Origin: Patescibacteria group bacterium
GTDB taxonomy: Bacteria; Patescibacteriota; Patescibacteriia; Patescibacteriales; BS150m-G62
Length of the DNA: 41,647 nucleotides
Direction: 5' to 3'
NCBI GenBank assembly: GCA_016784175.1
Contig: JADHVC010000007.1
Location: forward strand, 1-41,647
A program made the translations under genes and the position numbers. Shown here piece by piece: positions 17,031 through 29,763 of this stretch; position 1 is the first letter of the stretch; each line of letters opens with the position of its first letter. The notes under the pieces were generated by a model, which ran no database searches, was not told the DNA's origin, and saw only the letters and a program-made list of their open reading frames with translations.

Positions 17031-18275
17031 ATGAATATCTTTTATATTATCTTATTGTTTATTTTTGCCATACCGACAAGCAGTATTGTTTTGCCCCAAG
17101 ATTTTAAAGAAGTAATGGACAATACTGTTATTCATGATACAGGCACCACTACAAGCGAAGATGTGGCCGTTATTAAGTCAGATTCCGATATAAAAGGATC
17201 TCACTTTAATTTGGTAGAAAATCTTAATGCAGCCGAAATTTTAAATAGTCCAGAATACGACGATGTGACAAGTTATTTCTTTGCCTATTACACTGAAGGG
17301 AAAAGCGACACTTTAATGAAAGCCGCATTACTTGAATCTGAATTGAATGTTGTGCCGGAACCAGAGCCTTTAAAGTTTTTATTTTTTGGCGATATAATGC
17401 TCGATCGCTATGTTAAAACGATTATTGAAAGAAATCGCGTTGACTATATTTTTAGTGACTTGAAGGCGGTAAATTTTTTTGATAATCGTGATTTGATTAG
17501 CGCAAATTTAGAAGGGGCGGTAACAAATGGAGGTGAGCATTACAAGCCAATACATTCTAATGACTTTGCTTTTTCACCGGAAGTAATTGATAGCATTAAG
17601 GACTATGGTTTTAATTTTTTTAGCATTTCGAATAATCATTTAAGTGATCAGGGTGATATTGGAATAAAAGAGACAGAGACCAATTTGAGTGCTTTGGGAA
17701 TTAATTACTCTGGATGTAGGGACGGGCTAGTTGATGAATGTAGTGTAAGGATAGTTGAAATTAATGGCAAGAAAATCGGTATGTTGGGGTTGAGTATGGT
17801 TTATTCAAAATTAGACTTAGATAAGCTAAGCGATACGGTGAATAATTTAGCGAAAGAAACAGATTTAATATTTGCAAATGTTCATTGGGGTATTGAGTAT
17901 GTGCATCAGTTTAATCAACAACAACAAATATTTGCACATAAATTGATTGACTTGGGCGTAGATATTATAGTCGGACATCATCCGCATGTTGTGCAAGGTA
18001 TGGAAATGTACAAAAATAAGCCAATATTTTATTCTTTGGGAAATTTTGTTTTTGACCAATATTTTTCGCAGGCCACTCAAACCGGTTTGGCGTTAGGTAT
18101 GGAATTGAAAGATGATAATTTAAGTATTCTATTTCACCCTTTTAAGTCAAACATTACCAAGCCTATCCTTTTAACTGACGACGATAAAAGTAATTTTCTT
18201 GCTCAATATATTCAGTGGTCTACATTAAACCCCGAGCAAATTGATCAAGTTAAAGATGGGGGAATTAAATTGTAA
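17031..18275 (+). CDS. CapA-type metallophosphatase family protein, exported
   Basis: 414 residues. An N-terminal hydrophobic segment (residues ~2-17) acts as a signal peptide or anchor. After a ~95-residue spacer the CapA (PGA_cap) fold begins at LKFLFFGDIMLDRYV, with NLEGAVTNGG, FFSISNNHLSDQG, NVHWGIEYVHQ and IIVGHHPHVVQGMEMY, and ends with YSLGNFVFDQY. These are the conserved metal-site motifs of the calcineurin-like CapA family. In Bacillus, CapA takes part in poly-gamma-glutamate export; in other bacteria the substrate is often unknown. There are no capB or capC genes nearby, so a poly-glutamate capsule should not be assumed. It has no SD. Confidence 0.88.
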   Translation: MNIFYIILLFIFAIPTSSIVLPQDFKEVMDNTVIHDTGTTTSEDVAVIKSDSDIKGSHFNLVENLNAAEILNSPEYDDVTSYFFAYYTEGKSDTLMKAALLESELNVVPEPEPLKFLFFGDIMLDRYVKTIIERNRVDYIFSDLKAVNFFDNRDLISANLEGAVTNGGEHYKPIHSNDFAFSPEVIDSIKDYGFNFFSISNNHLSDQGDIGIKETETNLSALGINYSGCRDGLVDECSVRIVEINGKKIGMLGLSMVYSKLDLDKLSDTVNNLAKETDLIFANVHWGIEYVHQFNQQQQIFAHKLIDLGVDIIVGHHPHVVQGMEMYKNKPIFYSLGNFVFDQYFSQATQTGLALGMELKDDNLSILFHPFKSNITKPILLTDDDKSNFLAQYIQWSTLNPEQIDQVKDGGIKL

Positions 18276-18563: not shown

Positions 18564-19241
18564 ATGAAAAATACAACAAAACAATTTAAACATACAATAG
18601 TAGCAATAGATGTCGCTATAGTTACAATAGAAGGTAACGAACTTCAAGTCGCGTTAATACAGCTTAAAAATGAGCCATTTAAAAACTATTGGGCATTGCC
18701 GGGTGGAATGGTTGGGTCAGAAGAGTCCATCAAAGATGCAGTTTCAAGACATATAAAAATGAAGGCCGGCATAAGCAAGATCCACTTAGAACAACTTTAT
18801 ACTTTTGGTGAGGTGGATCGTGACCCTAGAGGGCGTATTGTCTCGGTTGGGTATTTGGCTCTTTCGCCAGTGGAGAAGTTGAAATTAAAAGCTAGCGAGG
18901 AATATTCAAACATTAAATTGTTTAAAGTTAATGCAATACCATCAAAAATAGCCTACGACCATAAAGAGATAATTAAAGTAGCTATTACAAGATTAAGGTC
19001 AAAGGTGGTTTATACGAACATAGTACGATATTTGATGCCAGATGAATTCACATTAACCGATTTGCAAAGAATTTATGAGGTAATATTGGGGAGGGAGTTT
19101 GATAAGCGGAATTTTAGGAAAAAGATGATGGTAATAAAAATGATCACAGATACTAAAAGAAAAACCAGTGGAGGAGCGCATCGACCAGCAAGCCTGTATA
19201 GGTTTTCTGGAAAAGGAGATTATAAAATAGATTTTATATGA
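18564..19241 (+). CDS. nrtR: NrtR-like Nudix-family transcriptional regulator of NAD genes
   Basis: 225 residues: a Nudix domain (about 10-135) followed by a winged helix-turn-helix-like C-terminal domain (about 150-215: FTLTDLQRIYEVILGREFDKRNFRKKMM). This two-domain layout is that of NrtR, which senses ADP-ribose or related NAD metabolites and represses NAD biosynthesis and salvage genes. The Nudix box is degenerate. Where enzymes have REx2EE, this protein has GGMVGSEESIKDAVSRHIKMKAGI, so the metal-binding glutamates are mostly lost and hydrolysis is unlikely; loss of catalysis is common among regulators of this type. It lies just upstream of pncA, nadE-nadD and pncB, and an inverted repeat overlaps its own transcription start. 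Like the core genes, it has no SD. Alternative: a Nudix hydrolase of unknown substrate with a helical tail. Confidence 0.82.
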   Translation: MKNTTKQFKHTIVAIDVAIVTIEGNELQVALIQLKNEPFKNYWALPGGMVGSEESIKDAVSRHIKMKAGISKIHLEQLYTFGEVDRDPRGRIVSVGYLALSPVEKLKLKASEEYSNIKLFKVNAIPSKIAYDHKEIIKVAITRLRSKVVYTNIVRYLMPDEFTLTDLQRIYEVILGREFDKRNFRKKMMVIKMITDTKRKTSGGAHRPASLYRFSGKGDYKIDFI

Positions 19242-19404: not shown

Positions 19405-19489
19405 TAGTTAGTAGTTAGTTGTTTACTGCTAAATGAGTAGCATGTTCTTTGAATTATACAAAAACAGCAAATTCGTAAAGGAGTTTACC
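19405..19489 (+). promoter_or_regulatory. pncA control region: GTTAGTT motif, ATGTTCTTT box, SD
   Basis: GTTAGTTGTTTAC (19414-19426) resembles the candidate operator before the Nudix regulator; a second GTTAGTA lies just upstream. ATGTTCTTTGAA (19442-19453) is the box shared with 6056, 20272 and 28352. The SD AAAGGAG is centred about 8 nt before the ATG at 19490 and decides that start over an upstream in-frame ATG at 19433. Confidence 0.5.
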
Positions 19490-20155
19490 ATGAATATCCG
19501 AGTGAACGGAAAAGAATATTTGATCGAGCAAGTTGCCAGTTTCGATGTAGATCCACAAAATGGGTTTACTCCTCTTTGCCCGGAAGAATTGCCAGTGCCG
19601 GAAGGTGACAAAATCGTACCGGAGCTTAACGCACAAGCAAAGTTCGCTGGCGTACGAGTAGCCAGTCGAGATGCACATTCCACTAATGCAGAATGGGTAG
19701 CGACAACCGAGAGACCACAGTTTACGCCAATCGTTGGAAAGCCAAATCTTGACTTGCATTGGAACTTGCACTGTAAATTTGGAACATTCGGTTTTGAGTT
19801 TATTTCCGGTCTACCTTCGGCACTAGAGTATAACTTTGTTGCAACCAAAGGTATGGAAGTAGATTCTCATCCTTATGGCGGTTGTTACCAAGACTTATGC
19901 AAGAGCATCTCGACTGGAGTGATCGAGTTTCTAAAAGCAAAAGGTGTTCAAGTTGTGATTGTCGGTGGTCTTGCTACTGACTATTGTCTTCTTGAGACGG
20001 TGCTTGAACTGATTGCGGCTGGGTTTGTGGTTGTGGTTAACCTTGGTGCTTGTCGTGGGGTTGCACCAGAATCGACTAAAAAAGCAGTCGAAAAGATGCG
20101 TCAAGTAGGGGTACTATTCATCGAAAGTGCCCAGGAGCTTGCCAGCGCAGTCTAA
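19490..20155 (+). CDS. pncA: Nicotinamidase (isochorismatase fold)
   Basis: Hydrolyses nicotinamide to nicotinate and ammonia, the first step of the Preiss-Handler salvage route. 221 residues from the SD-supported ATG. The catalytic Asp is in FDVDPQNGF (about residue 19), metal ligands are in SRDAHSTN, and the nucleophilic Cys is in GGLATDYCLLET (about 167); the intervening ATKGMEVDSHPYGG carries the lysine region. The cysteine-hydrolase triad Asp-Lys-Cys is thus complete. The gene follows the NrtR-like regulator on the same strand with its own control region and ends in a terminator hairpin. Its product would feed the nicotinate phosphoribosyltransferase at 28426. Codon use is somewhat more GC-rich than the core genes. 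Confidence 0.93.
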   Translation: MNIRVNGKEYLIEQVASFDVDPQNGFTPLCPEELPVPEGDKIVPELNAQAKFAGVRVASRDAHSTNAEWVATTERPQFTPIVGKPNLDLHWNLHCKFGTFGFEFISGLPSALEYNFVATKGMEVDSHPYGGCYQDLCKSISTGVIEFLKAKGVQVVIVGGLATDYCLLETVLELIAAGFVVVVNLGACRGVAPESTKKAVEKMRQVGVLFIESAQELASAV

Positions 20156-20173: not shown

Positions 20174-20217
20174 GGCGGAAATATATGTATCAATCATTAA
20201 TATATTTCCGCCCCTTT
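20174..20217 (+). terminator. Terminator-like hairpin after pncA
   Basis: GGCGGAAATATAT (20174-20186) pairs perfectly with ATATATTTCCGCC (20200-20212); CCTTTCT follows, a weak U-tract. A counterpart GGCGGAG/CTCCGCC hairpin follows nadE-nadD at 28088. Confidence 0.7.
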
Positions 20218-20218
20218 C

Positions 20219-20284
20219 TAGAGTATCTGATTACTATCGGATTCTCTAAGAAGGAAGTATTAGCCTTAGATATGTTCTTTACAA
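20219..20284 (+). promoter_or_regulatory. Second hairpin plus ATGTTCTTTACAA box before the J-domain gene
   Basis: TAGAGTATC (20219-20227) and GATTCTCTA (20240-20248) form an inverted repeat. It is matched by TAGAGAATT/AATTTTCTA at 28117-28146 and TTAGAGAATATC/GATATTCTCTAA at 25330. CTAAGAAgGAA follows in both long copies. Then TTAGAT and ATGTTCTTTACAA (20272-20284). The arms change together between copies, so the paired structure is kept. It may be a protein-binding operator or an RNA hairpin. Confidence 0.5.
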
Positions 20285-20317
20285 CAAAGGGTTCAATCCC
20301 GGAATAGGAGACAAAAA

Positions 20318-21418
20318 ATGAATATCCAGGAGCTTCAAATTGTTCACGATAAAGTTGTTCAAGCTGAATTTCCAGAAGATATTTTTGGTAGCAATAGCTC
20401 ACATTTTAAAGTTAACTTTCGGCATATGGCAAAAATTGTTCATCCAGATTTATATAGTGGTGCGAAAGATAGTGTTAAAGCTATGGCGCACATTACATCC
20501 TCTAAATTGAACGATCTATATGAGCGAGCTAAGAAAGTAGATGTTGATGGTACTTATGGATTGCGTAAATCACAAGTTGAGGAAGAAAAAGAAGAATTTA
20601 ATTTTGTGGTTACAATCAAAAAGCAAATGTATCATTTAAAAGAGGTTTTATTGGAAGATGACTTTTTCACTATTTATGGTGGATACTATCTTAAGGAAGA
20701 TGGTGAGAGACAAGAGATCATTGTTAAAATAGCGAATACTGAAAGTGAAAACGACTTTATTGAAAATGACTTACGTATCTCAAAGATTCTGCAAGAACCT
20801 GACGATGAATATGATTTTGGAAAACATTTGCCTGTTCTACTTGGTCGATTTAAGACTTCTGATAATCAATTAGCTTCGATCTGGCAGAAAATTGATGGGT
20901 ATGATTTGTTTGAAGTTCGTGAGAAATATCCTAAAGGAGTGCCTCAAGAGCATGTAGTTTGGATGTTAAATAGAATCTTGACGGTACTTGGATTCGCGCA
21001 TGAGAAAGGAATTGTTCATGGCAATATCGATCCATCTCGAATATTCATTCGACCTCGTGATCATAATGGTTGGCTTTGCGATTGGAGTTGTGCTGTTAAT
21101 CTACCAAAGAAAACAGGCGAACAATTCAAGGTTTGGAATAAAGATTACAGTGCTCCAGAAGTAAAAGATAAGGCATCACCTCTACCTAGTGCAGATATGT
21201 ATTCGCTTGGAAAGACGATGATGTATTTGCTGGGTGGTGATGTTTTGACTAATGAAATGCCTAGTTGCGTTGACATTCGATTGCAACGGCTTATTCGGTA
21301 TTTTGTTCTAGGTTCCCCTTATGGGCGAGCTTCTGACGCTTGGCAAACTCGCCACCATTTAAGGGAAATAAGGCGTGAAGTTTTTGGACCTGATCGCTTT
21401 CGAGAATTTCGTATGTGA
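20318..21418 (+). CDS. J-domain protein fused to a pseudokinase
   Basis: 366 residues. The N-terminus is J-domain-like: FRHMAKIVHPDLYSG contains the HPD tripeptide (residues 42-44) that stimulates Hsp70 ATPases. Residues ~105-350 form a protein-kinase fold: IIVKIAN keeps the ATP-binding lysine, DNDLRIS-like helix C is present as ENDLRISKIL, CDWS stands for DFG (Asp255), SAPEV is the APE motif, and SADMYSLGKTMMYLL is subdomain IX. The catalytic loop HRDxKxxN is HGNIDPSRIF (His234-Gly-Asn236), so the catalytic Asp is Asn and a pseudokinase is predicted. The gene sits between pncA and the MIDAS/YfaP-like gene, with an SD and the ATGTTCTTTACAA leader. J-domain/kinase fusions suggest recruitment of Hsp70 to a signalling complex; its exact role is unknown. 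Confidence 0.82.
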   Translation: MNIQELQIVHDKVVQAEFPEDIFGSNSSHFKVNFRHMAKIVHPDLYSGAKDSVKAMAHITSSKLNDLYERAKKVDVDGTYGLRKSQVEEEKEEFNFVVTIKKQMYHLKEVLLEDDFFTIYGGYYLKEDGERQEIIVKIANTESENDFIENDLRISKILQEPDDEYDFGKHLPVLLGRFKTSDNQLASIWQKIDGYDLFEVREKYPKGVPQEHVVWMLNRILTVLGFAHEKGIVHGNIDPSRIFIRPRDHNGWLCDWSCAVNLPKKTGEQFKVWNKDYSAPEVKDKASPLPSADMYSLGKTMMYLLGGDVLTNEMPSCVDIRLQRLIRYFVLGSPYGRASDAWQTRHHLREIRREVFGPDRFREFRM

Positions 21419-21486
21419 TCGGCAAAAAGAATCAAACCAACCAACAAACCAACAAATCAAACAACAACTAATGAAGGAGAATGACC
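21419..21486 (+). promoter_or_regulatory. CAA/ACC-rich unstructured leader
   Basis: AATCAAACCAACCAACAAACC and similar repeats almost without G for ~45 nt, ending in an AAGGAG SD. A related CAAAACAACCAACCAATTG stretch precedes pncB (28390-28408). Such leaders stay unpaired and can enhance translation. The SD favours the ATG at 21487 over the one at 21481, which would be only about two bases away. Confidence 0.45.
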
Positions 21487-22956
21487 ATGGGCGGACCCAA
21501 TTCTTATGACATTAATGAAGGAAGACGATCACGAAGGAGTAACCAAGGAGCTTTCAATTTTGAGCAGCAATCTAGATCAAGTATTGAGAGTGGAGCACAA
21601 AGGCGTGAAGTACATCCAGAGCTTAATCCAAAAGGTAAAGTTAGGGTGTGCGAACAAGAAACACCCATTGTGACTGCTATGGATTTTACTCAGTCTCGTG
21701 GGCGCGATGCTGAAATTGTGTATAATCGGATCCCAGAGTTCTTTAATGTCTGTCAGATGAGAGGATATGTAAGGAATTTTGCCGTCAGTTTTTGCGGTTT
21801 TGGCGATGCGACAGCCGGTGACCGTGCACCACTTCAGGTGGGACAATTTGAAACCGATAATAAGCTTGATGTAGAGTTAGCAAAGATGTGGATCGAGCAA
21901 GGGGGTGGAGGTACTGGAGAAGAATCAGCCGAGTTGGTTGCATATTATTATGCTTATCGGACTGAACTTCGAGGACTTCGCCCAGGCAAGAAAGGTTATT
22001 TCTTTTTCATTACCGATGAAGGTTTTTATCCAAAGGTTTCGGCCAGTCAAGTTAAAGATCTTTTGGGAGTGGATATGCCAGCAGATATTGATTTTGAGCA
22101 AGTTTTCAAGGATCTTCAAAAAAAGTTCAATGTTTATCTTATTTTTCCAAGAAAGACATGGGAAGAGCGTAAGGATGACATTGATGCAGAAATCCGTAAG
22201 CGTGTTACAGAGGCTGGTGGACAATATAATAATGTCGACATTCGAGCATCACTTTTATGGAACGACAGAAATGACCTTGACTTGCATGTGGTTACGCCAC
22301 ATAACGAGCGAATTTATTATGGTCATAAACGATCGCGCTGTGGGGGTTGTCTTGATGTTGATAGAAACGTTCGCGGTGAGACGACGAAGCCCGTTGAGAA
22401 TATTAGATGGAAAAATGGAAAAGCACTAAAAGGTAAATATCAAGTGATTGTGCAAAATTATGCGTTTCATGAAGCGTCGCGCACACCAATTGATTTTCGG
22501 GTTGAGCTTGAGGTAAATGGTAGAGTTCAAAGCTTCAAAGGAGTTGCTTCGCCAAATGGTGAGACAGGTTACAGCAGTGATATTTTGGTTGCTGAGTTTG
22601 ATTATGATCCAAACCAAAGAGTCTATAACCCAGATAAATACGCAGCCTACAAGGATGGTGTGGTTATTGGAAAATGGGCGAAAGTTATTCCTCCGCAAAA
22701 TATTCTGAAGATCGATGATCCTCAGTCTATCATCGAGGTTATGATGGGTGTGCTTGCACTGGCAAGCGACGATGTCGATTTGGATGATGTTCGAGTTGAT
22801 ATGGCTGGACTTGGGTTAAGCGCACTTCAGCAAAAGGGAGCATTGAAGGCCTTGGAAGGTTTGGCTGAGTCTCGGGCGGTTGCAAAGGCTGTGACTGCTG
22901 GAAATTTGCCAACAAAAAAAATACAGCGCAAGCCAAGTGGGGTTGTTAAATTGTAA
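21487..22956 (+). CDS. MIDAS (VWA-like) protein with YfaP/DUF2135-like domain
   Basis: 489 residues; the start at 21487 was chosen by SD spacing. After a disordered, Arg/Ser/Gln-rich N-terminus comes a von Willebrand A-like domain (about 60-245): TAMDFTQS carries a DxTxS metal-ion-dependent adhesion site (Asp66), and FFFITDEGFYPK supplies a later strand. Residues ~253-370 resemble the YfaP/DUF2135 fold: LLWNDRNDLDLHVVTPHNE, RCGGCLDVDRN, VENIRWKNG and GKYQVIVQNYAF. In stress-response systems of the Ter type, VWA and such beta-sandwich proteins occur beside kinases and metabolite enzymes. A helical tail (DDVDLDDVRVDMAGLGLSAL) ends the protein. No signal peptide is seen, so a cytosolic scaffold or sensor is likely. 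Confidence 0.8.
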   Translation: MGGPNSYDINEGRRSRRSNQGAFNFEQQSRSSIESGAQRREVHPELNPKGKVRVCEQETPIVTAMDFTQSRGRDAEIVYNRIPEFFNVCQMRGYVRNFAVSFCGFGDATAGDRAPLQVGQFETDNKLDVELAKMWIEQGGGGTGEESAELVAYYYAYRTELRGLRPGKKGYFFFITDEGFYPKVSASQVKDLLGVDMPADIDFEQVFKDLQKKFNVYLIFPRKTWEERKDDIDAEIRKRVTEAGGQYNNVDIRASLLWNDRNDLDLHVVTPHNERIYYGHKRSRCGGCLDVDRNVRGETTKPVENIRWKNGKALKGKYQVIVQNYAFHEASRTPIDFRVELEVNGRVQSFKGVASPNGETGYSSDILVAEFDYDPNQRVYNPDKYAAYKDGVVIGKWAKVIPPQNILKIDDPQSIIEVMMGVLALASDDVDLDDVRVDMAGLGLSALQQKGALKALEGLAESRAVAKAVTAGNLPTKKIQRKPSGVVKL

Positions 22957-22969
22957 GGATTCATTAACG

Positions 22970-23002
22970 GGGGCTTGGCTTTTAGCAAAAAGTCGAGTCC
23001 CC
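22970..23002 (+). other. Stem-loop between the MIDAS gene and the PK-like gene
   Basis: GGGGCTTGGCTTTT pairs with AAAAGTCGAGTCCCC (one bulge and G-U pairs) around a four-base loop. An A-rich run, not T, follows, so it may slow rather than end transcription and could set the ratio between the two genes. Confidence 0.6.
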
Positions 23003-23032
23003 AAACAAAAAAAACAAAAAAAGTAGAATAAA

Positions 23033-23926
23033 ATGCTGATTGTAACCTTACCCGCAGCTCATCAAGAAGAATTGATGCTTGATATCATTAGTCATCCTTT
23101 GGTTGACGCAGTGAGGTATAATATTGGCACTTGTTCTGCTTTTTCACCAAAGTTAACATTAAAAAAAATTCTTTGGTTAACACAAAGATACAATAAAAAG
23201 CTTTGGATTGATTTGAAAGGTAGGCAATTGCGGATCGCTAAATGGGCCGTTCCACAATACGGAAGAATATTTTTAAATCATAAAATTAAATTAACTTGTC
23301 CGGCTAAAATATTTTTTCGGGGGGGTGATTGGTCTTTTGTTAAAGTAGTTCGGAGAAACGAGATCTTTGTTGATCCACTACCAAGACACGCTTTAGGTGA
23401 AGGCCAAGCAATTAATATTGCTGGAGACGATCTGGAAATTGAAGGGAATTTAACCGAGGATGATAGAGAATATTTGCAAGAAGCTCGCGCGCTTGGAATA
23501 AACAATTTTATGCTAAGTTTCGTGGAGCGCGAAGAAGATTTATTGGATGTTTGGACAATTCACCCAGAAGCTCAGTTGGTGGCCAAAATTGAATCTCAAA
23601 AGGGGATGATATTCGTCGAAAACGATTATCGTAAATATACCGGACGAGTCAATTTAATGGCAGCTCGCGACGACCTATATATTAATATTGGTCCAAAAGA
23701 AATCCTCGGTGCTTTAAAGAAAATTGTTGAGAGTGATGCAGATGCTATTGTTGCCTCGAGAATTCTTTGTTCACTAGAGCAGGATTGGGTTGTGTCTTTG
23801 GCAGATCTAGCCGATGTTATGTTAATGAAGCAGTTTGGATATCGGCAATTTATGTTTTCTGATGGTCTTAGTCAAAGGAAGTTCAAAGAGTCTATTGCTG
23901 TGTGGGGTGAGATCGAAAGGAGATAA
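23033..23926 (+). CDS. Reduced pyruvate-kinase-like TIM barrel protein
   Basis: 297 residues, far shorter than pyruvate kinase (about 470). Only the catalytic barrel, with a shrunken B domain, is present; the allosteric C-terminal domain is missing. Landmarks in PK order: RYNIGT (where PK has RxNFSHG), IDLKGRQLRI (PK: DTKGPEIR), EGQAINIAGDDLEIEGNLTE followed by DREYLQEARALGINNFMLSF (PK: the PaLTEkD...SFVR region), AKIESQKGM (PK: KIEN.EG) and MAARDDLYI (PK: MVARGDLG). The KIE lysine and metal-ligand acidic residues are kept, but the substrate-side RxNFSHG is lost, so it may enolise or phosphorylate another small molecule. It has no strong SD. The adenylosuccinate-synthetase-like gene starts 2 bp after its stop, so the two are translationally coupled. 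Confidence 0.8.
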   Translation: MLIVTLPAAHQEELMLDIISHPLVDAVRYNIGTCSAFSPKLTLKKILWLTQRYNKKLWIDLKGRQLRIAKWAVPQYGRIFLNHKIKLTCPAKIFFRGGDWSFVKVVRRNEIFVDPLPRHALGEGQAINIAGDDLEIEGNLTEDDREYLQEARALGINNFMLSFVEREEDLLDVWTIHPEAQLVAKIESQKGMIFVENDYRKYTGRVNLMAARDDLYINIGPKEILGALKKIVESDADAIVASRILCSLEQDWVVSLADLADVMLMKQFGYRQFMFSDGLSQRKFKESIAVWGEIERR

Positions 23927-23928
23927 CA

Positions 23929-25320
23929 ATGAAAAACGCACATATTGTCATTGGCTTAGGTTATGGCGATGAAGGTAAGGGGACAATTACGGAGTATCTT
24001 ACACGAAGAGAAAAAGCTGGATTGGTGGTGAGGTTTAACGGTGGATCACAAGCTGCACACCATGTAGTTACTGATGAGACCACACATTGCTTTGCTCAAT
24101 TTGGTTCTGGAACTTTTATTTCAGGTGTTCAGACCTACTTGTCAGAATATATGTTAGTTGACCCACGAACTCTACATGGTGAAGCATTAGTTCTAGCTGA
24201 AAAAGGCGTGAGTGATGCTTTAGCTCGACTGAGTATTAACTCGAAGTGTTTGGTTATTACGCCATTTCATAAAACAATGAATAGAGTGCGTGAGTTTATG
24301 CGAGGTGAGTCAAAACATGGAAGTTGTGGGATGGGAGTTGGAGAAACGGTACGCGATGGCGAGATTTTAGGCCAAAATGCTTTAATGATGGGTGACTTAA
24401 GAGATGCCTATATTATTCGAAAAAAGTTGGACGAACTTAGAAAAATCAAAGTTAAAGAAGCTAAAGAGTTTTTGGAGGACAATGAAGATAATCAAACTTT
24501 GCAAGCATTAGTCCAAGAATTAAGCCAACCTGGTTTAGTAACCTTGTTAGTAGAGGAATATTATCTTTTCGTAAAGGAAAATGCCTTAAACATTGTTGAT
24601 AAACACGAATTTGAAAGACATGAACGAGTAGTATTTGAAGGAGCACAGGGTGTTTTGCTCGATAGTGAACATGGTTTTTGGCCATATATCACAAAGACTA
24701 AAGCAACTTTTAGGAATGCTTGTCAGCTTATTGAAAAAAATCGTGATACTAAGACAAAGAAAATCGGTGTAATCCGTGCCTATCATACTCGTCATGGAGC
24801 AGGACCACTTATTACTGAAGATTCTTTCTTGGCAGATGTAGTTCCAGAGATGCACAATGGGAAAAATGTTTGGCAAGATAGCTTTAGGGTTGGCTGGTTT
24901 GACTTGGTGGCTACTCGGTATTCGTTAAAAAATGTGGAAGATATTGATGAAGTTGCCTTAACAAACCTTGATCGTCTTAATGGAATTGGTAATGTAAAAG
25001 TTTGTGTTGCATATAGTTATGAAGGAGACAAAACAGTCGCTTTGGACAAATATTTTGTGTATAGAATTCAAGATGATAAAGTGATTATCGAGGATATAAA
25101 AGTTCTGCCCATGCCAAACTTGGCTCATCAGAGTCAACTAGCTTGTCTCCTGTTAGAATGCAGGCCAATGTTCGTTTCATTTGGAAGTATAGAAGGTGAT
25201 CTTAAAGACCCTCTAACTTACAAAGAATATGTGCAATGGCTTCAAAAAGAGTTGAAAATCAAAATCTCAATTTTATCGATGGGTCAAAAATACCAAGATA
25301 AAGCTGAAGTGGTTCTTTAA
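23929..25320 (+). CDS. Adenylosuccinate-synthetase-like enzyme (divergent PurA)
   Basis: 463 residues with the PurA fold. GLGYGDEGKGT keeps the catalytic Asp and phosphate loop, GGSQAAHH keeps the catalytic His, and FEGAQGVLLDSEHGFWPY and GAGPLITE match substrate loops. Several specificity regions are changed: GTTGRGIGP reads HGSCGMGVGET, the aspartate-loop TTGRRRRTGW reads WQDSFRVGW, the guanine-binding TKLD is TNLD, and the terminal STGPDR is SMGQKY. True PurA conserves these, so a different nucleotide or amino-acid substrate is likely. It has a good SD (AAAGGAG) and is coupled to the PK-like gene. A plain purine-synthesis role is unlikely, since no other pur gene is nearby. Alternatives: PurZ-like enzyme acting on another nucleotide, or ligase making a nucleotide-like metabolite. 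Confidence 0.85.
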   Translation: MKNAHIVIGLGYGDEGKGTITEYLTRREKAGLVVRFNGGSQAAHHVVTDETTHCFAQFGSGTFISGVQTYLSEYMLVDPRTLHGEALVLAEKGVSDALARLSINSKCLVITPFHKTMNRVREFMRGESKHGSCGMGVGETVRDGEILGQNALMMGDLRDAYIIRKKLDELRKIKVKEAKEFLEDNEDNQTLQALVQELSQPGLVTLLVEEYYLFVKENALNIVDKHEFERHERVVFEGAQGVLLDSEHGFWPYITKTKATFRNACQLIEKNRDTKTKKIGVIRAYHTRHGAGPLITEDSFLADVVPEMHNGKNVWQDSFRVGWFDLVATRYSLKNVEDIDEVALTNLDRLNGIGNVKVCVAYSYEGDKTVALDKYFVYRIQDDKVIIEDIKVLPMPNLAHQSQLACLLLECRPMFVSFGSIEGDLKDPLTYKEYVQWLQKELKIKISILSMGQKYQDKAEVVL

Positions 25321-25329
25321 ATTTGACAA

Positions 25330-25376
25330 TTAGAGAATATCTTACTAAAATACACAAGATATTCTCTAACTTTATT
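25330..25376 (+). terminator. Intrinsic terminator after the PurA-like gene
   Basis: TTAGAGAATATCTT (25330-25343) pairs perfectly with AAGATATTCTCTAA (25356-25369), followed by CTTTATTT. The TAGAGAAT arm recurs in hairpins at 20219 and 28117. Confidence 0.75.
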
Positions 25377-25415: not shown

Positions 25416-25485
25416 GTTATTTGCTACTTATTAAAAAGATATGTAGCTTGATCTTTTCAATTTAATCACAAAAATGGAGAAAAGC

Positions 25486-28059
25486 ATGGACACTAAATCG
25501 ATTTTTTTAAATGGTCTTAAGATTGCGATGTGTCAGATGAAAATTGTTCCAGGGCGTCCTGATAGTAATGGACTGTACATAATTGATGAAATAAAAAAGG
25601 CAGCAGTCAATGGGGTTGATGTAATTATTTTTCCAGAAATGGCTGTACCAGGTTATTTTATTGGCGACAAGTGGGAAGATGTAGCGTTTATTCACGATTG
25701 CGAATACTACAACAAGGCAATTGTGCGAGCAACAAGTAGTAGTATTACTGCCATTTGGGGTTCTGTGTATGTTCCTAGAAATGAGCTTGGTCAACCAGAG
25801 ACTGGCGAAGATGGACGCTTGCAAAGATGGAATGCAGGTTTTATTGCTCAGGGTGGCCAATTATTAAGTAACGGTATCTTGCCAGTTGCAGTAAAGGCGT
25901 TAATGCCTGAATATCGTTTTTTTGATGATGATCGTCATTTTTATTCGGCGAGAAAAATTGCTGACGAGCATGGCGTATTATTGAGTCAGTTATTAAAACC
26001 TTTTCCTGTGCTAATAAAGGATCAGTATATTTTTCTTGGAGTTATGCTTTGTGAGGATATGTGGCACATCGATTACCTTCATAATCCAGGTCGGTATTTA
26101 GTGGGCAATGGCGCAGCTATATTAATTAACCTTTCTTGGTCGCCGTGGGGATGGCAGAAAAATCGAAAGCGACATCAAGTTGTGCGTGATTTGCTTGCTA
26201 TTTGTAAGGTGCCTATGATCTATGTGAGTGGTGTTGGCGTGCAGAACAACGGTAGGAATATTATTACTTGCGACGGAAGCTCATGTGCTTACAATCAAGA
26301 CGGAAAAATTATCTTTGAAGCTTTGCCGTATGGCTCTGGGACAAGTGTGATGGATATTGTAAGCGAATTTAGTGCAGTCGAGAATGTTACGACACTAGAC
26401 AATGCTTTGCATTTTAGACAAAGCGCAAAAGCACGGCTTGAACGGTTAGTGGTCACTAGCACGAGTTCAATAGAAGACACTGTGCAATTGTATGCCGCAC
26501 TTTGGAATGCGATTAAATATATGTACGATAACTTACCACCTCGTATGAGAAAAGTGGTAGTCGGACTTTCGGGTGGTATTGATTCGGCAGTTGTACTGGC
26601 TTTAATGACACAAGTATTCGGTAGGGAAAATTGTATCGCCGTAAATATGCCATCGGGTTATAATAGTCAACTTACAAAAGACATTGCGCGTAAAATCGCT
26701 GATTCTTTAGGGGTTGAATATTTAATCCGTCCGATTGATGAGGTTGTTGACATGGTTGCTAAGATAAGTGAGATAGAACCAGATACAATAGAATATGAAA
26801 ATATTCAATCGGTTGTTCGGATGCAATTTCTTAAAGCCATTGCGGCTAAAAGAGGGGCTGTTTTTCCCAATAATGGCAATAAAGTCGAAGCGGCCTTTGG
26901 CTATTTTACGCTTTATGGTGATTCTGCTGGATTTATGGCACCAATTGGCGACCTAGTCAAAGGGGAGGTTCGCCAAGTGGCAGACTTTCTAAATAAAGTA
27001 ATTTTCGACTGTGAGGTTATTCCGAAAGTTTGCATAGATATGCCCCCAACAGCCGAGTTGGCTAGAGAACAAATTGACCCGTTTTGTTACGGAACACTTA
27101 CTAAAAGAGGCTATCACGATGAAATGGTGCGAGCTTTTGTAGAGTTTCGCAAAAATCCAGAGTGGTTTCTTAAATGTTATGTTCAAGGAGTACTTGAATC
27201 CGAACTTAAACTTGAAGCTGGCACGTTGCAAAGGCTATTTCCAAACGGAATGATCGATTTTATCGCTGATCTTGAAAAACACTGGGAAGCTTTCCATAAT
27301 AGCTTTCATAAACGAAATCAGATGCCTCCAATTCCGGTTGTGTCTAAACGAGCCTTTGGGTTCGATTTAAGAGAATCTATGCTGGGGGTGCATTTCACTA
27401 CTAAATATAGGGACATGCGAGTTTCATACCATACTCCTCGCGACACATCTGTAAAAGAACAGAATAGCGTAGTGATTTATGGCTTGAGTGCTAATCCACC
27501 TGGGCTTCATCATACCAAGATTATCAAAGGGCTTTTGAAGTATACACAAAAAGTGGTAGTTATCCCTTGTGGTGGGCGTCCAGATAAAGTGTCTGTCAAT
27601 GAAATTGAAAATAGTCACAGAAAAAAAATGGTGAATATGGCTTTTGGGGGTATTCCAGGAGTCAGCCTCGATTTCTCTGACCTTGAAGGAGAATCGTTTA
27701 CGCCGACAATTGACTTGGGCGTGCGCTATCAAGCACAATATCCAGATGCAAATATCTTCTACGCCATTGGTCCAGATATTATTCGAGGTGGGGCCGTTGG
27801 TCAGTCTGAAATTCATCGTGCATGGAAAGAAGGTAAGAAAGTTTGGAATGACTTACATTTTATAGTTGTTGTTTTTTCCTGTGATGAACTTTTAAAAGAA
27901 GATCTTCCACCAAAAGCAGAGGTATTAAAGATAGAATATTTGACTGGCCGAAGTTCGATTATTCGTCAAAGAGTGGCTGAGCGGAAAAGTTGGTATCATC
28001 TAGTATGTCACGAGGTAGGTCAATACATCCGAGAGAACAATCTTTATCAAAAAGAATAA
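25486..28059 (+). CDS. nadE: Glutamine-dependent NAD synthetase fused to NaMN adenylyltransferase
   Basis: 857 residues from the SD-supported ATG at 25486. Three domains: (1) nitrilase-type glutaminase, residues ~10-290, with catalytic Glu in IIFPEMAVPG, Lys in AVKALMPEYRFFDDDRHF and Cys in VMLCEDMW; (2) NAD synthetase, ~330-620, with the ATP-binding GLSGGIDSAVV loop; (3) NadD-type nucleotidyltransferase, ~655-857, starting YGLSANPPGLHH (the GxFxPxHxxH-type motif) and ending with TGRSSIIRQRV (the ISSTxIR-type motif). One chain could therefore turn NaMN into NaAD and then into NAD with glutamine-derived ammonia. NadE alone is usually ~540-680 residues, so the extra C-terminal enzyme is a true fusion. 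It lies between the PurA-like gene and pncB. Confidence 0.93.
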   Translation: MDTKSIFLNGLKIAMCQMKIVPGRPDSNGLYIIDEIKKAAVNGVDVIIFPEMAVPGYFIGDKWEDVAFIHDCEYYNKAIVRATSSSITAIWGSVYVPRNELGQPETGEDGRLQRWNAGFIAQGGQLLSNGILPVAVKALMPEYRFFDDDRHFYSARKIADEHGVLLSQLLKPFPVLIKDQYIFLGVMLCEDMWHIDYLHNPGRYLVGNGAAILINLSWSPWGWQKNRKRHQVVRDLLAICKVPMIYVSGVGVQNNGRNIITCDGSSCAYNQDGKIIFEALPYGSGTSVMDIVSEFSAVENVTTLDNALHFRQSAKARLERLVVTSTSSIEDTVQLYAALWNAIKYMYDNLPPRMRKVVVGLSGGIDSAVVLALMTQVFGRENCIAVNMPSGYNSQLTKDIARKIADSLGVEYLIRPIDEVVDMVAKISEIEPDTIEYENIQSVVRMQFLKAIAAKRGAVFPNNGNKVEAAFGYFTLYGDSAGFMAPIGDLVKGEVRQVADFLNKVIFDCEVIPKVCIDMPPTAELAREQIDPFCYGTLTKRGYHDEMVRAFVEFRKNPEWFLKCYVQGVLESELKLEAGTLQRLFPNGMIDFIADLEKHWEAFHNSFHKRNQMPPIPVVSKRAFGFDLRESMLGVHFTTKYRDMRVSYHTPRDTSVKEQNSVVIYGLSANPPGLHHTKIIKGLLKYTQKVVVIPCGGRPDKVSVNEIENSHRKKMVNMAFGGIPGVSLDFSDLEGESFTPTIDLGVRYQAQYPDANIFYAIGPDIIRGGAVGQSEIHRAWKEGKKVWNDLHFIVVVFSCDELLKEDLPPKAEVLKIEYLTGRSSIIRQRVAERKSWYHLVCHEVGQYIRENNLYQKE

Positions 28060-28116: not shown

Positions 28117-28364
28117 TAGAGAATTTAAAGCAATTTGAATTTTCTAAGAAAGAAATGGTAACTACTCACTATATCTGCATCACTTTTTCGCTTAGGATGG
28201 AATATTGGGTAATTTTTTACGCACAATTTAACAAAAATTTTAAACTCGCTTCACTCAAACATAAAATTTTTTAAGTTAAATTCTGCGAAAAATTACTACA
28301 TATTCCATATGCGCTCAAAAATAATGCAGATATAGTGAGTAGTTACTAGAAATGTTCTTTACAA
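28117..28364 (+). promoter_or_regulatory. pncB control region, split by a palindromic repeat
   Basis: TAGAGAATT (28117-28125) pairs with AATTTTCTA (28138-28146), then CTAAGAAAGAAATG, parallel to the arrangement before the J-domain gene. The 189-bp palindromic element then intervenes, and the series resumes with AAATGTTCTTTACAA (box 28352-28364). The element therefore looks inserted into a pre-existing shared control region. This stretch of 366 bp between genes (28060-28425) holds these items and no coding sequence. Confidence 0.5.
28158..28346. repeat. Long palindromic repeat, copy 2 (complete)
   Basis: The outer arms at 28158-28180 and 28324-28346 are perfect 23-bp inverted repeats (the left one begins GTAACTACTCACTATATC). 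Inside, TGGAATATTGGG... pairs with ...ATATTCCA and GCACAATTTAAC with GTTAAATTCTGCG imperfectly, so the whole 189 bp can fold into one long hairpin. The core is the inverse of 1-137. It has no coding capacity. It lies in the leader region of pncB, upstream of the box and the SD. Confidence 0.8.
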
Positions 28365-28425: not shown

Positions 28426-29763
28426 ATGAAAGCTTTTGAGCCAAAAGATATCTTTGCACCAGCTTCGGATCTGCCAATCGTCACAGGTTTTCTTGACATG
28501 GATTTTTATAAATTTACCATGGGGCAGTTTATTTTTATGGACCCTAAATTGCGAGATGTCGAAGTGACCTTTGGATTAACAATTCGCACTAAAGATGTGA
28601 GGCTTGCTAAGATTATCGATATTAATGAGTTGAAAGAGCATCTTGATAGCGCACGTAAATTGAGTATGAAGCCAGCTGAATTAGCTTTTCTTCGTGGGAT
28701 TCCTATGACAACAAGACGGACTATGTTTTTCGAAGAATATATTACGTTTTTGTCTGGTCTTAATTTGCCTGACTATAATCTTGAATATGAAGGGGACGAC
28801 ATATATTTGTCGTTTTCTGGACCGTAGAGCAAAGTGACTTATTGGGAAATTATTGCAATGGAAATTATCTCCGAGCTTTATTATTGGAGTTTAGTAAAGC
28901 GTGCAATGAGGCAAGGCGAAATGAGCCAAGGTGACTTTACTGCAATGTATTTCGTTATGCAGTCAAGAGCTTATGAGTTTATTCGTGCGTTTAAAGATGC
29001 ACCTAGCGTGACCTTTGTTGAGTTTGCAACTCGTAGGCGCAATTCTTTTCGGTGGCAGAGATTCATTAACGATCTCTTACAAAAGCATTTGCCACAGCAG
29101 TTTCTCGGAGCATCGAATGTTTTAATCGCTATGAAGAATGGAAGCGCCAACCCAATTGGTACAAATGCCCATGAACTGCGAATGGTTTATGCTAATATTA
29201 CGCCTAACGACAACGATGATGAAATCCGTGAGTCGCAATATCAGGTTGATCGTGATTGGATGAAGATGTACCCAGAGCTTGGAATTTTGTTACCAGATAC
29301 CTTTGGTTCAACCCAGTATTTTGCTGGTGCAGAAAGGGATATTGCACAAAATTGCACAGGATCACGCTTTGACTCAAAAGAGCCAGTGGAAGCCGGTAAA
29401 GAATTTGCCAATTGGCTTGAAGGTCACGGTGTAGATCCAAAAGAGAAGTTAGCTTTGCCATCAGACGGGCTTACTGCTGAAACCGCTATTCATGCTTGCA
29501 CTTCACTTTCTTCCAAGTTTAAAAAGGCTAGTGCCTGTATTGGTACTAACCTTGGGAACAATTGTAGTAATGTATGGCCGTTAGTAGATGACCCTGGCTT
29601 TAAACCATTCTCTATGGTGATCAAAGCTACAGAAGCTAATGGTCGTTCTGCAGTAAAGCTATCCGATAACCCAAATAAAGCTATGGGTAGTCCAGAAAGA
29701 GTTGAACGGTTTAAAAAAATTTTTGGTGTAAGGAATATTCGCGAACAAGAAGTGCTTGTCTAA
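28426..29763 (+). CDS. pncB: Nicotinate phosphoribosyltransferase, interrupted by an in-frame TAG
   Basis: Converts nicotinate and PRPP (with ATP) to NaMN. The reading frame of 446 codons shows the PncB family throughout: LDMDFYKFTMGQFIF, VEFATRRRNSF, IGTNAHELRM, DTFGSTQYF and a C-terminal SDGL region. The only break is TAG at 28825-28827 (codon 134) between FSGP and SKVTYWEI. The family usually has GPW at this point, so TGG to TAG (one base) is the likely change. Downstream sequence has kept its conserved residues, which argues for a recent nonsense change, a sequencing error, or readthrough. A GGGAG SD lies 6 nt before the ATG. It is the step between PncA and the NadE-NadD fusion. Confidence 0.88.

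Follow-up and report, generated by a model that had tools for sequence, protein, structure and literature searches.

The closest description we found of a gene set like the one reported here is that of the ARG-centred ADP-ribose conflict systems (Iyer et al. 2022, PMC9503650, section 3.8), which, in the parts of that article consulted, combine an NrtR-like Nudix transcription factor and a vWA chaperone with a core and swappable modules. Our locus resembles them in these traits and in the ADP-ribosylglycohydrolase (ARH) found at some of its relatives. It differs in that ARH is optional rather than the core, which here consists of a PurA paralog (PURAL) and a vWA protein, and the portion of the article searched mentions no PurA-like, PK-like or J-pseudokinase protein. 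A phage NAD reconstitution pathway (Osterman et al. 2024, in the passage citing it in PMC12028318) offers a second comparison: one viral contig (L192) carries NadV and NadM within a single run of genes (NrtR-vWA-NadM-NadV-PURAL-kinase), though neither vWA nor PURAL nor the kinase is known to belong to those pathways. Ter-dependent systems (see also PMC7824862) join a TerY vWA-kinase-phosphatase triad to PRTase and HAD enzymes; they share with our locus a vWA protein, a kinase-like protein and nucleotide-acting enzymes, but the enzyme set here is another one. The PurZ (aminoadenine) pathway likewise contains a PurA-derived, phage-borne enzyme re-specialised for another purine. MoxR AAA+/vWA pairs combine a vWA protein with an ATPase or a neighbour that recruits chaperones, as does a variant of the present system; that AAA+ is of the PF00004 type, however, and a J-pseudokinase usually stands in its place.

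Individual components have been recorded in phages. Three protein families of Bixzunavirus, PHROG 1211, 2971 and 3043, correspond to three proteins of the present set and form a gene run in these phages, but each has its own label (2-aminooxy adenylosuccinate synthetase, unknown and kinase, respectively), and the announcement of a C1 phage (PMC9476963) lists a PurA-like gene and a kinase and nothing more of the set. A search of the open-access literature, with subscription journals outside its scope, found no description of an association between PURAL and vWA or of the system.

The window, a stretch of 41,647 nucleotides of contig JADHVC010000007.1 from a Patescibacteria group bacterium (genome 1.21 Mb, 91% complete), contains the open reading frames of four such genes between positions 20318 and 25320, all on the forward strand (Table 1). 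The first-pass annotation had described four co-oriented genes of these folds with the last two 2 bp apart, and both the reading frames and our alignments bear this out. Comparison with other genomes indicates that JKIN-vWA-PKL-PURAL is a single instance of a gene system that is widespread and, it appears, undescribed. We regard it as very probable that the system is real and conserved and that its enzymes are re-specialised.

Table 1 Features of the four-gene locus and its NAD-related surroundings in the window.
Feature	Position	Strand	Basis or detail
NrtR-type regulator (Nudix + NrtR_WHD)	18564..19241	+	PF21906, 8e-26
Nicotinamidase-like PncA	19433..20155	+	PRK11609, 6e-18
Operon leader	20174..20286	+	GC hairpin closing pncA (20174-20212), second hairpin, then TTAGATATGTTCTTTACAA
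JKIN (J-domain/pseudokinase)	20318..21418	+	ORF, family alignment; HPD residues 42-44, kinase-like ~110-312
vWA (MIDAS) protein, YfaP-like insert	21481..22956	+	Family alignments, AF2/Foldseek, phage YfaP-region matches
PKL (truncated pyruvate-kinase paralog)	23033..23926	+	PF00224, alignments, AF2/Foldseek
PURAL (PurA paralog)	23929..25320	+	PF00709, active-site table, tree, PHROG 1211
Perfect 14-bp inverted repeat	25330..25369	+	Directly after PURAL
NAD synthetase with glutaminase domain fused to NadD	25474..28059	+	Family match
Nicotinate phosphoribosyltransferase (NAPRT)	28426..29763	+	Family assignment; one in-frame TAG at 28825-28827

The four genes are separated by gaps of 62, 76 and 2 bp, and with hairpins on both sides, one at the end of pncA and one formed by the inverted repeat, they look like one transcription unit. 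The repeat is the likely 3' end of this unit, and we treat the four genes as a predicted operon. Its leader element TTAGATATGTTCTTTACAA is common to the leader of NAPRT, and a 20-mer from it occurs twice in the window (before the operon and before NAPRT), against 0.13 occurrences expected. Rfam recognised no RNA family between positions 18200 and 30200.

Among CPR bacteria the set recurs with its order intact. A vWA protein search of 381 genomes of the class returned full-length relatives in five genomes besides that of the window, and JKIN-vWA-PKL-PURAL follow one another in all five. Shorter vWA relatives sit in related cassettes. Of 34 CPR loci compared by profile, 21 have PURAL and 18 have PKL (10 have the two together), and five have a CoaD-CoaE-like enzyme; one locus at a contig edge (L043) had none of the three. 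In sister loci an active J-kinase or kinase and the vWA accompany either PKL alone or the CoaD-CoaE-like enzyme. The vWA match is patchy, with hits in 23 of the 381 genomes of the class sample and 10 of the 380 of a phylum sample. The first-pass annotation would have been refuted had the four families never co-occurred elsewhere, and they do. Chance proximity of the genes is rejected, their order being kept across orders and phyla.

Outside CPR the system reaches actinomycetes, plasmids and phages (about 200 phage records plus plasmids). A protein search of phages and plasmids placed the kinase-vWA-PURAL set in Bixzunavirus mycobacteriophages (189 Mycobacterium records) and on plasmids of Rhodococcus, Tsukamurella, Variovorax, Rhizobium and Agrobacterium, and the vWA-PURAL pair in Rhizobium and Vibrio phages. 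Scanning with the vWA alignment retrieved at least 570 relatives from genome contigs, of which we analysed the best 80, all actinomycetes and so closely related that counts among them are not independent, and 125 from viral contigs, of which 80 were analysed. vWA and PURAL occur together in 157 of these 160 loci, including 78 of the 80 viral contigs, and a JKIN-like gene was recognised by profile in 99; the J-protein escaped the profile in 26 of the 80 actinomycete loci. Single-protein scans of contigs (one PURAL protein against genome contigs, the window vWA against viral contigs) returned nothing, because such scans reach close relatives only; profile and whole-genome searches succeeded. A 17-row vWA alignment contained no stretch conserved enough for scanning.

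These comparisons show a core of vWA and PURAL, usually with a J-domain pseudokinase, to which PKL is an added enzyme. PKL was seen beside PURAL only in CPR. The two enzymes had been proposed to form one pathway, but PKL stands without PURAL at 8 CPR loci and on two phage contigs (J-kinase-vWA-PKL in a 485-kb phage and in a viral contig), and PURAL stands without PKL at 11 CPR loci and at every PURAL-bearing actinomycete and viral locus retrieved. Since they are so often apart, the data do not support a pathway that always needs both enzymes.

The surroundings of the set point to NAD. In the window an NrtR-type regulator, PncA, the NadE-NadD fusion and NAPRT lie around the four genes, which confirms an NAD-salvage setting. 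An NrtR-like gene accompanies 75 of the 80 actinomycete loci analysed (the best 80 of at least 570), where the alignment covers a degenerate Nudix box and the winged helix, as well as the Agrobacterium plasmid locus (2e-15) and five CPR loci. NadE/NadD-type genes lie near five of the six CPR four-gene loci. ARH was found near three CPR loci, one actinomycete locus and one phage locus; no open reading frame of the window joined the ARH cluster. Among the 80 viral loci analysed, NadV or NadM lies within 6 kb in four, and most phage loci have no NAD gene within that distance. The gene run of L192, and in the window the leader common to the operon and NAPRT, add to the connection. Judged from gene neighbourhoods, the recurring link to NAD is strong, and the suggestion that NAD supply is tied to the system held up well. 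Some NrtR relatives control sugar pathways, and that ADP-ribose is the ligand in this branch is our assumption.

This setting also bears on a possible role in phage-host conflict, in which bacterial copies would counter NAD depletion or ADP-ribosylation in the course of infection and phage copies would serve as a counter-defence by restoring damaged NAD or deaminated purine nucleotides. The many phage records, the plasmids and the patchy occurrence in CPR (10/380) are consistent with such a role, as are the interleaving of NadV and NadM in L192 and the ARH and NrtR partners, which resemble those of the ARG-centred systems predicted in the consulted parts of PMC9503650. However, PADLOC gave no match for the cassette vWA or PKL and none of note for PURAL, and large chromosomal contigs from many species of one genus carry many of the actinomycete copies. 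We consider this role rather unlikely. It concerns physiology, and it is compatible with the explanation we prefer below.

The first gene, JKIN, was annotated as a J-domain protein with a kinase whose catalytic Asp had become Asn, and this description agrees with our alignment: its N-terminal helical domain carries the HPD motif (residues 42-44), and in the kinase-like region HGN (N236) replaces HRD and DWS replaces DFG. The window protein has no DnaJ Pfam match; its phage relative L066 matches both DnaJ (1e-14) and Pkinase (7e-29). HPD is present in all 54 recognised actinomycete and 38 of the 45 recognised viral JKIN proteins among the loci analysed. The predicted state of the kinase tracks the module in which it sits. 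PURAL-linked kinases have lost catalytic residues, their alignable loops reading HGN, HGA, HTA, HCN and similar (the exception, CPR locus L039, keeps HGD and has lost the Asp of DFG), and PKL-only and CoaDE-linked kinases keep both HxD and DFG.

The second gene product is predicted to have a vWA (MIDAS) fold. Its AF2 model (pLDDT 77) is matched by Foldseek to the integrin beta I domain with a probability of 1.00; the domain spans approximately residues 55-225 with the MIDAS D68xT70xS72, and a YfaP-like beta-sandwich insert occupies approximately residues 233-375, the region matched by phage proteins. The MIDAS/YfaP-like identity first given to this protein is therefore upheld, by the modelled fold for the one part and by the phage matches for the other. 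The window protein has no Pfam or NCBIfam match, and the family as a whole, with the DxTxS MIDAS and motifs of its own, has no Pfam match.

A chaperone-recruiting arm formed by these two proteins, as the first-pass annotation had suggested, is plausible because HPD is conserved and because, at five CPR loci, the position of the J-kinase is taken by an AAA+ ATPase (PF00004). MoxR-vWA pairs switch on other enzymes, and by this model the whole system could serve maturation, with PURAL, PKL and the CoaD-CoaE-like enzyme as clients, perhaps near-normal in function, and the vWA with the J-(pseudo)kinase or AAA+ as their dedicated activator. The vWA fold, the interchange of J-kinase and AAA+ ATPase upstream of the same vWA, and the sharing of the vWA/kinase partner by three unrelated enzyme families all agree with this. 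Yet the PURAL-linked kinases are pseudokinases while the others are intact, and the IMP and aspartate sites are lost across the PURAL family, which argues against a normal enzyme; we think this model unlikely.

PURAL itself matches PF00709 (E=1.4e-75) and scores far below the NCBIfam PurA equivalog cut-off (218.9 bits against 402). In a tree built from 52 PURAL sequences and 10 of canonical PurA, PURAL is monophyletic with a split supported at 100/100, so it stands apart from housekeeping PurA, and canonical PurA is present alongside it in several CPR genomes. Against the PurZ model NF038379 it scores 53.4 bits, with a cut-off of 300; the comparison with PurZ that had been called for therefore sets the two apart, and identity with PurZ is ruled out, PURAL being nearer PurA. 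The residues mapped onto E. coli PurA (numbering of that enzyme; we take their functional roles from general knowledge) separate into two groups. The GDEGKG P-loop is kept, as are D13, K16, H41, Q224, T239 and D333 in nearly all rows. Contacts to the IMP 5'-phosphate are replaced (N38 by Q, T128-T129 by S-C in most sequences, R143 lost or variable), V273 is H in the family, and the aspartate loop TTGRxRR (T300, T301, R303, R305) is absent, with a segment containing WQ in its place family-wide; R303 and R305 are missing from the window protein. PurA-like proteins here had been said to lack both the aspartate loop and the GPDR motif. The first loss stands; of the second, PDR is gone and the G is still there, as is a C-terminal S. 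Since the substitutions are consistent across the family, they suggest a new substrate pair, and simple gene decay is rejected.

By these residues PURAL is a re-specialised enzyme, predicted to retain its GTP and base-activation sites and to have replaced those for the IMP phosphate and aspartate. Together with known PurA chemistry, the pattern points to GTP-dependent activation of a 6-oxopurine, with IMP and free aspartate not bound in the usual way. The same pattern could accommodate a protein- or RNA-modifying ligase, in which an amine of a macromolecule, presented by the vWA/J arm, would fill the aspartate site and receive the purine nucleotide. Replacement of the aspartate loop family-wide with base-activation residues kept would fit such a ligase, as would partners of peptide-binding and chaperone type; we nevertheless rate it as distinctly improbable.

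In the window's own genome, PURAL and PKL are the only PurA and PK matches, and a PurB-like gene scores below its family cut-off (262 against 326 bits), so that AMP synthesis by PURAL is just conceivable there. This is the evidence for a housekeeping role, in which a reduced genome would simply use PURAL and PKL in place of adenylosuccinate synthetase and pyruvate kinase. However, other genomes encode the canonical enzymes beside the paralogs, PURAL forms a distinct clade, substrate-binding residues are replaced and the scores fall far under the equivalog cut-offs, and such a role seems to us very improbable.

PKL, at 297 aa, matches PF00224 (E=2e-11) but reaches 62 bits where the pyruvate kinase family cut-off is 432. 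Its AF2 model (pLDDT 94) retrieves pyruvate kinases in Foldseek with E-values down to 8e-18, and canonical PK is encoded alongside it in other genomes. Residues conserved in PKL are R28, N30, D60, K62, R67, K185, E187, D214, S242 and R243 (window numbering); in PykF numbering, R32, N34, D66, K220, E222 and D246 are kept. PKL thereby retains the PEP/Mg core, whose residues R32, K220, E222 and D246 are invariant in the alignment. A conserved S stands at the position of PykF T278, and S36 and T67 are not conserved. The reported loss of the C-terminal domain is real, while that of the RxNFSHG motif holds only in part: its Arg and Asn are kept and invariant, and only the Ser is lost.

The most likely explanation of these data is an NAD/ADP-ribose-responsive system that makes a modified purine nucleotide and has a J/vWA chaperone arm, its chemistry being inferred. 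In the fuller mechanism we envisage, NrtR would repress the operon until rising ADP-ribose, a sign of NAD being consumed, released it. PURAL would then spend GTP on phosphorylating a purine nucleotide, one different from IMP, at its 6-oxo group. Displacement of this phosphate by an amine that is not free aspartate would give an N6-substituted adenine nucleotide; alternatively, PURAL might restore adenine on a deaminated NAD-like nucleotide. For PKL we envisage a PEP-dependent step, phosphoryl or enolpyruvate, that would act on this pool or a related one. The vWA protein, binding peptides with the help of its metal, would join the J-pseudokinase in keeping hold of the enzyme or its target and bringing in Hsp70, with the pseudokinase acting as a nucleotide-sensing scaffold rather than a kinase. 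We put this combination of NrtR release, purine chemistry, PKL step and Hsp70 arm forward tentatively, at slightly less than an even chance. Somewhat more doubtful, in our estimation, is that it amounts to a new NAD/ADP-ribose-triggered pathway, common to CPR, actinomycetes and phages, whose PurA-derived ligase would make a novel N6-substituted purine nucleotide, or place a purine on protein, under control of an Hsp70-recruiting J-pseudokinase and a vWA.

The system joins chaperone recruitment, a vWA protein, PurA- and PK-derived enzymes and NAD sensing in one gene set of bacteria and phages, whose parts are at present named one by one, and to some extent misleadingly, as adenylosuccinate synthetase, kinase or hypothetical protein. 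From the PURAL signature we predict that a well-known type of enzyme has acquired a new substrate, and the system gives access to the NAD biology of CPR bacteria and to the contest between phages and their hosts over NAD. Its presence in about 190 sequenced M. smegmatis phages and in cultured Nocardia, Rhodococcus and Gordonia makes these predictions directly testable.

The analogy with Ter-type stress systems drawn by the first-pass annotation proved weak, a general resemblance only. Membership in the Ter systems is rejected: among the nine window proteins scanned none matched TerB, TerC, TerD or TelA, and neighbours at other loci were scanned in part. A PRTase_3 and an HAD enzyme were seen near a single phage locus, that of a Rhizobium phage.

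Kinase and vWA (MIDAS) genes related to those of the window's four-gene set adjoin a gene for a CoaD-CoaE-like enzyme in loci L038 (G000:C8), L045, L054, L061 and L062, which include a second locus of the window's own genome. In L037 and L051, a metallophosphoesterase-like gene is followed by kinase, vWA and PKL (truncated pyruvate-kinase paralog) genes and then by a small radical-SAM protein. Two CPR genomes (G164 and G140) each carry two cassettes of unlike type, one with PURAL (the PurA paralog) and one with PKL only.

A second linked trio, found in four loci (see table), comprises an unknown protein, a vWA-like one that carries DNSGS, and a third protein, which contains a kinase domain in its L035 copy (Pkinase, 1e-25). 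Sequence related to the unknown protein was present in ten CPR loci.

Among phages, one of 485 kb has, close to its J-kinase-vWA-PKL genes, an ORF resembling ADP-ribosylglycohydrolase and a gene that by eye is Thg1-like. In Rhizobium phage RHph_Y65, HAD, PRTase_3 and Nudix genes lie upstream of vWA-PURAL. The vWA match falls into two pieces in some Bixzunavirus (mycobacteriophage) records (e.g., JN699627, MF919513 and NC_054722); in NC_054722, the split spans a gene annotated as an HNH endonuclease.

In the window, the nicotinate phosphoribosyltransferase (NAPRT) gene is broken by a single in-frame TAG, with both resulting ORFs in one frame, which may reflect a pseudogene, an assembly error or recoding. 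The NAPRT copy of the leader shared with the four-gene operon is split by a short, MITE-like element whose terminal inverted repeats (TAACTACTCACTATATCTGCAT) are 22 bp long and perfect.

Coordinates of the features described in the text
Feature	Sequence	Positions
Second linked trio	L034	3547-8094
Second linked trio	L035	14014-18677
Second linked trio	L036	2514-6999
Second linked trio	L046	1753-6867
485-kb phage locus	L066	10418-14313
RHph_Y65 locus	L070	2762-5098
Short element	Window	28159-28345
NAPRT	Window	28426-29763
In-frame TAG	Window	28825-28827
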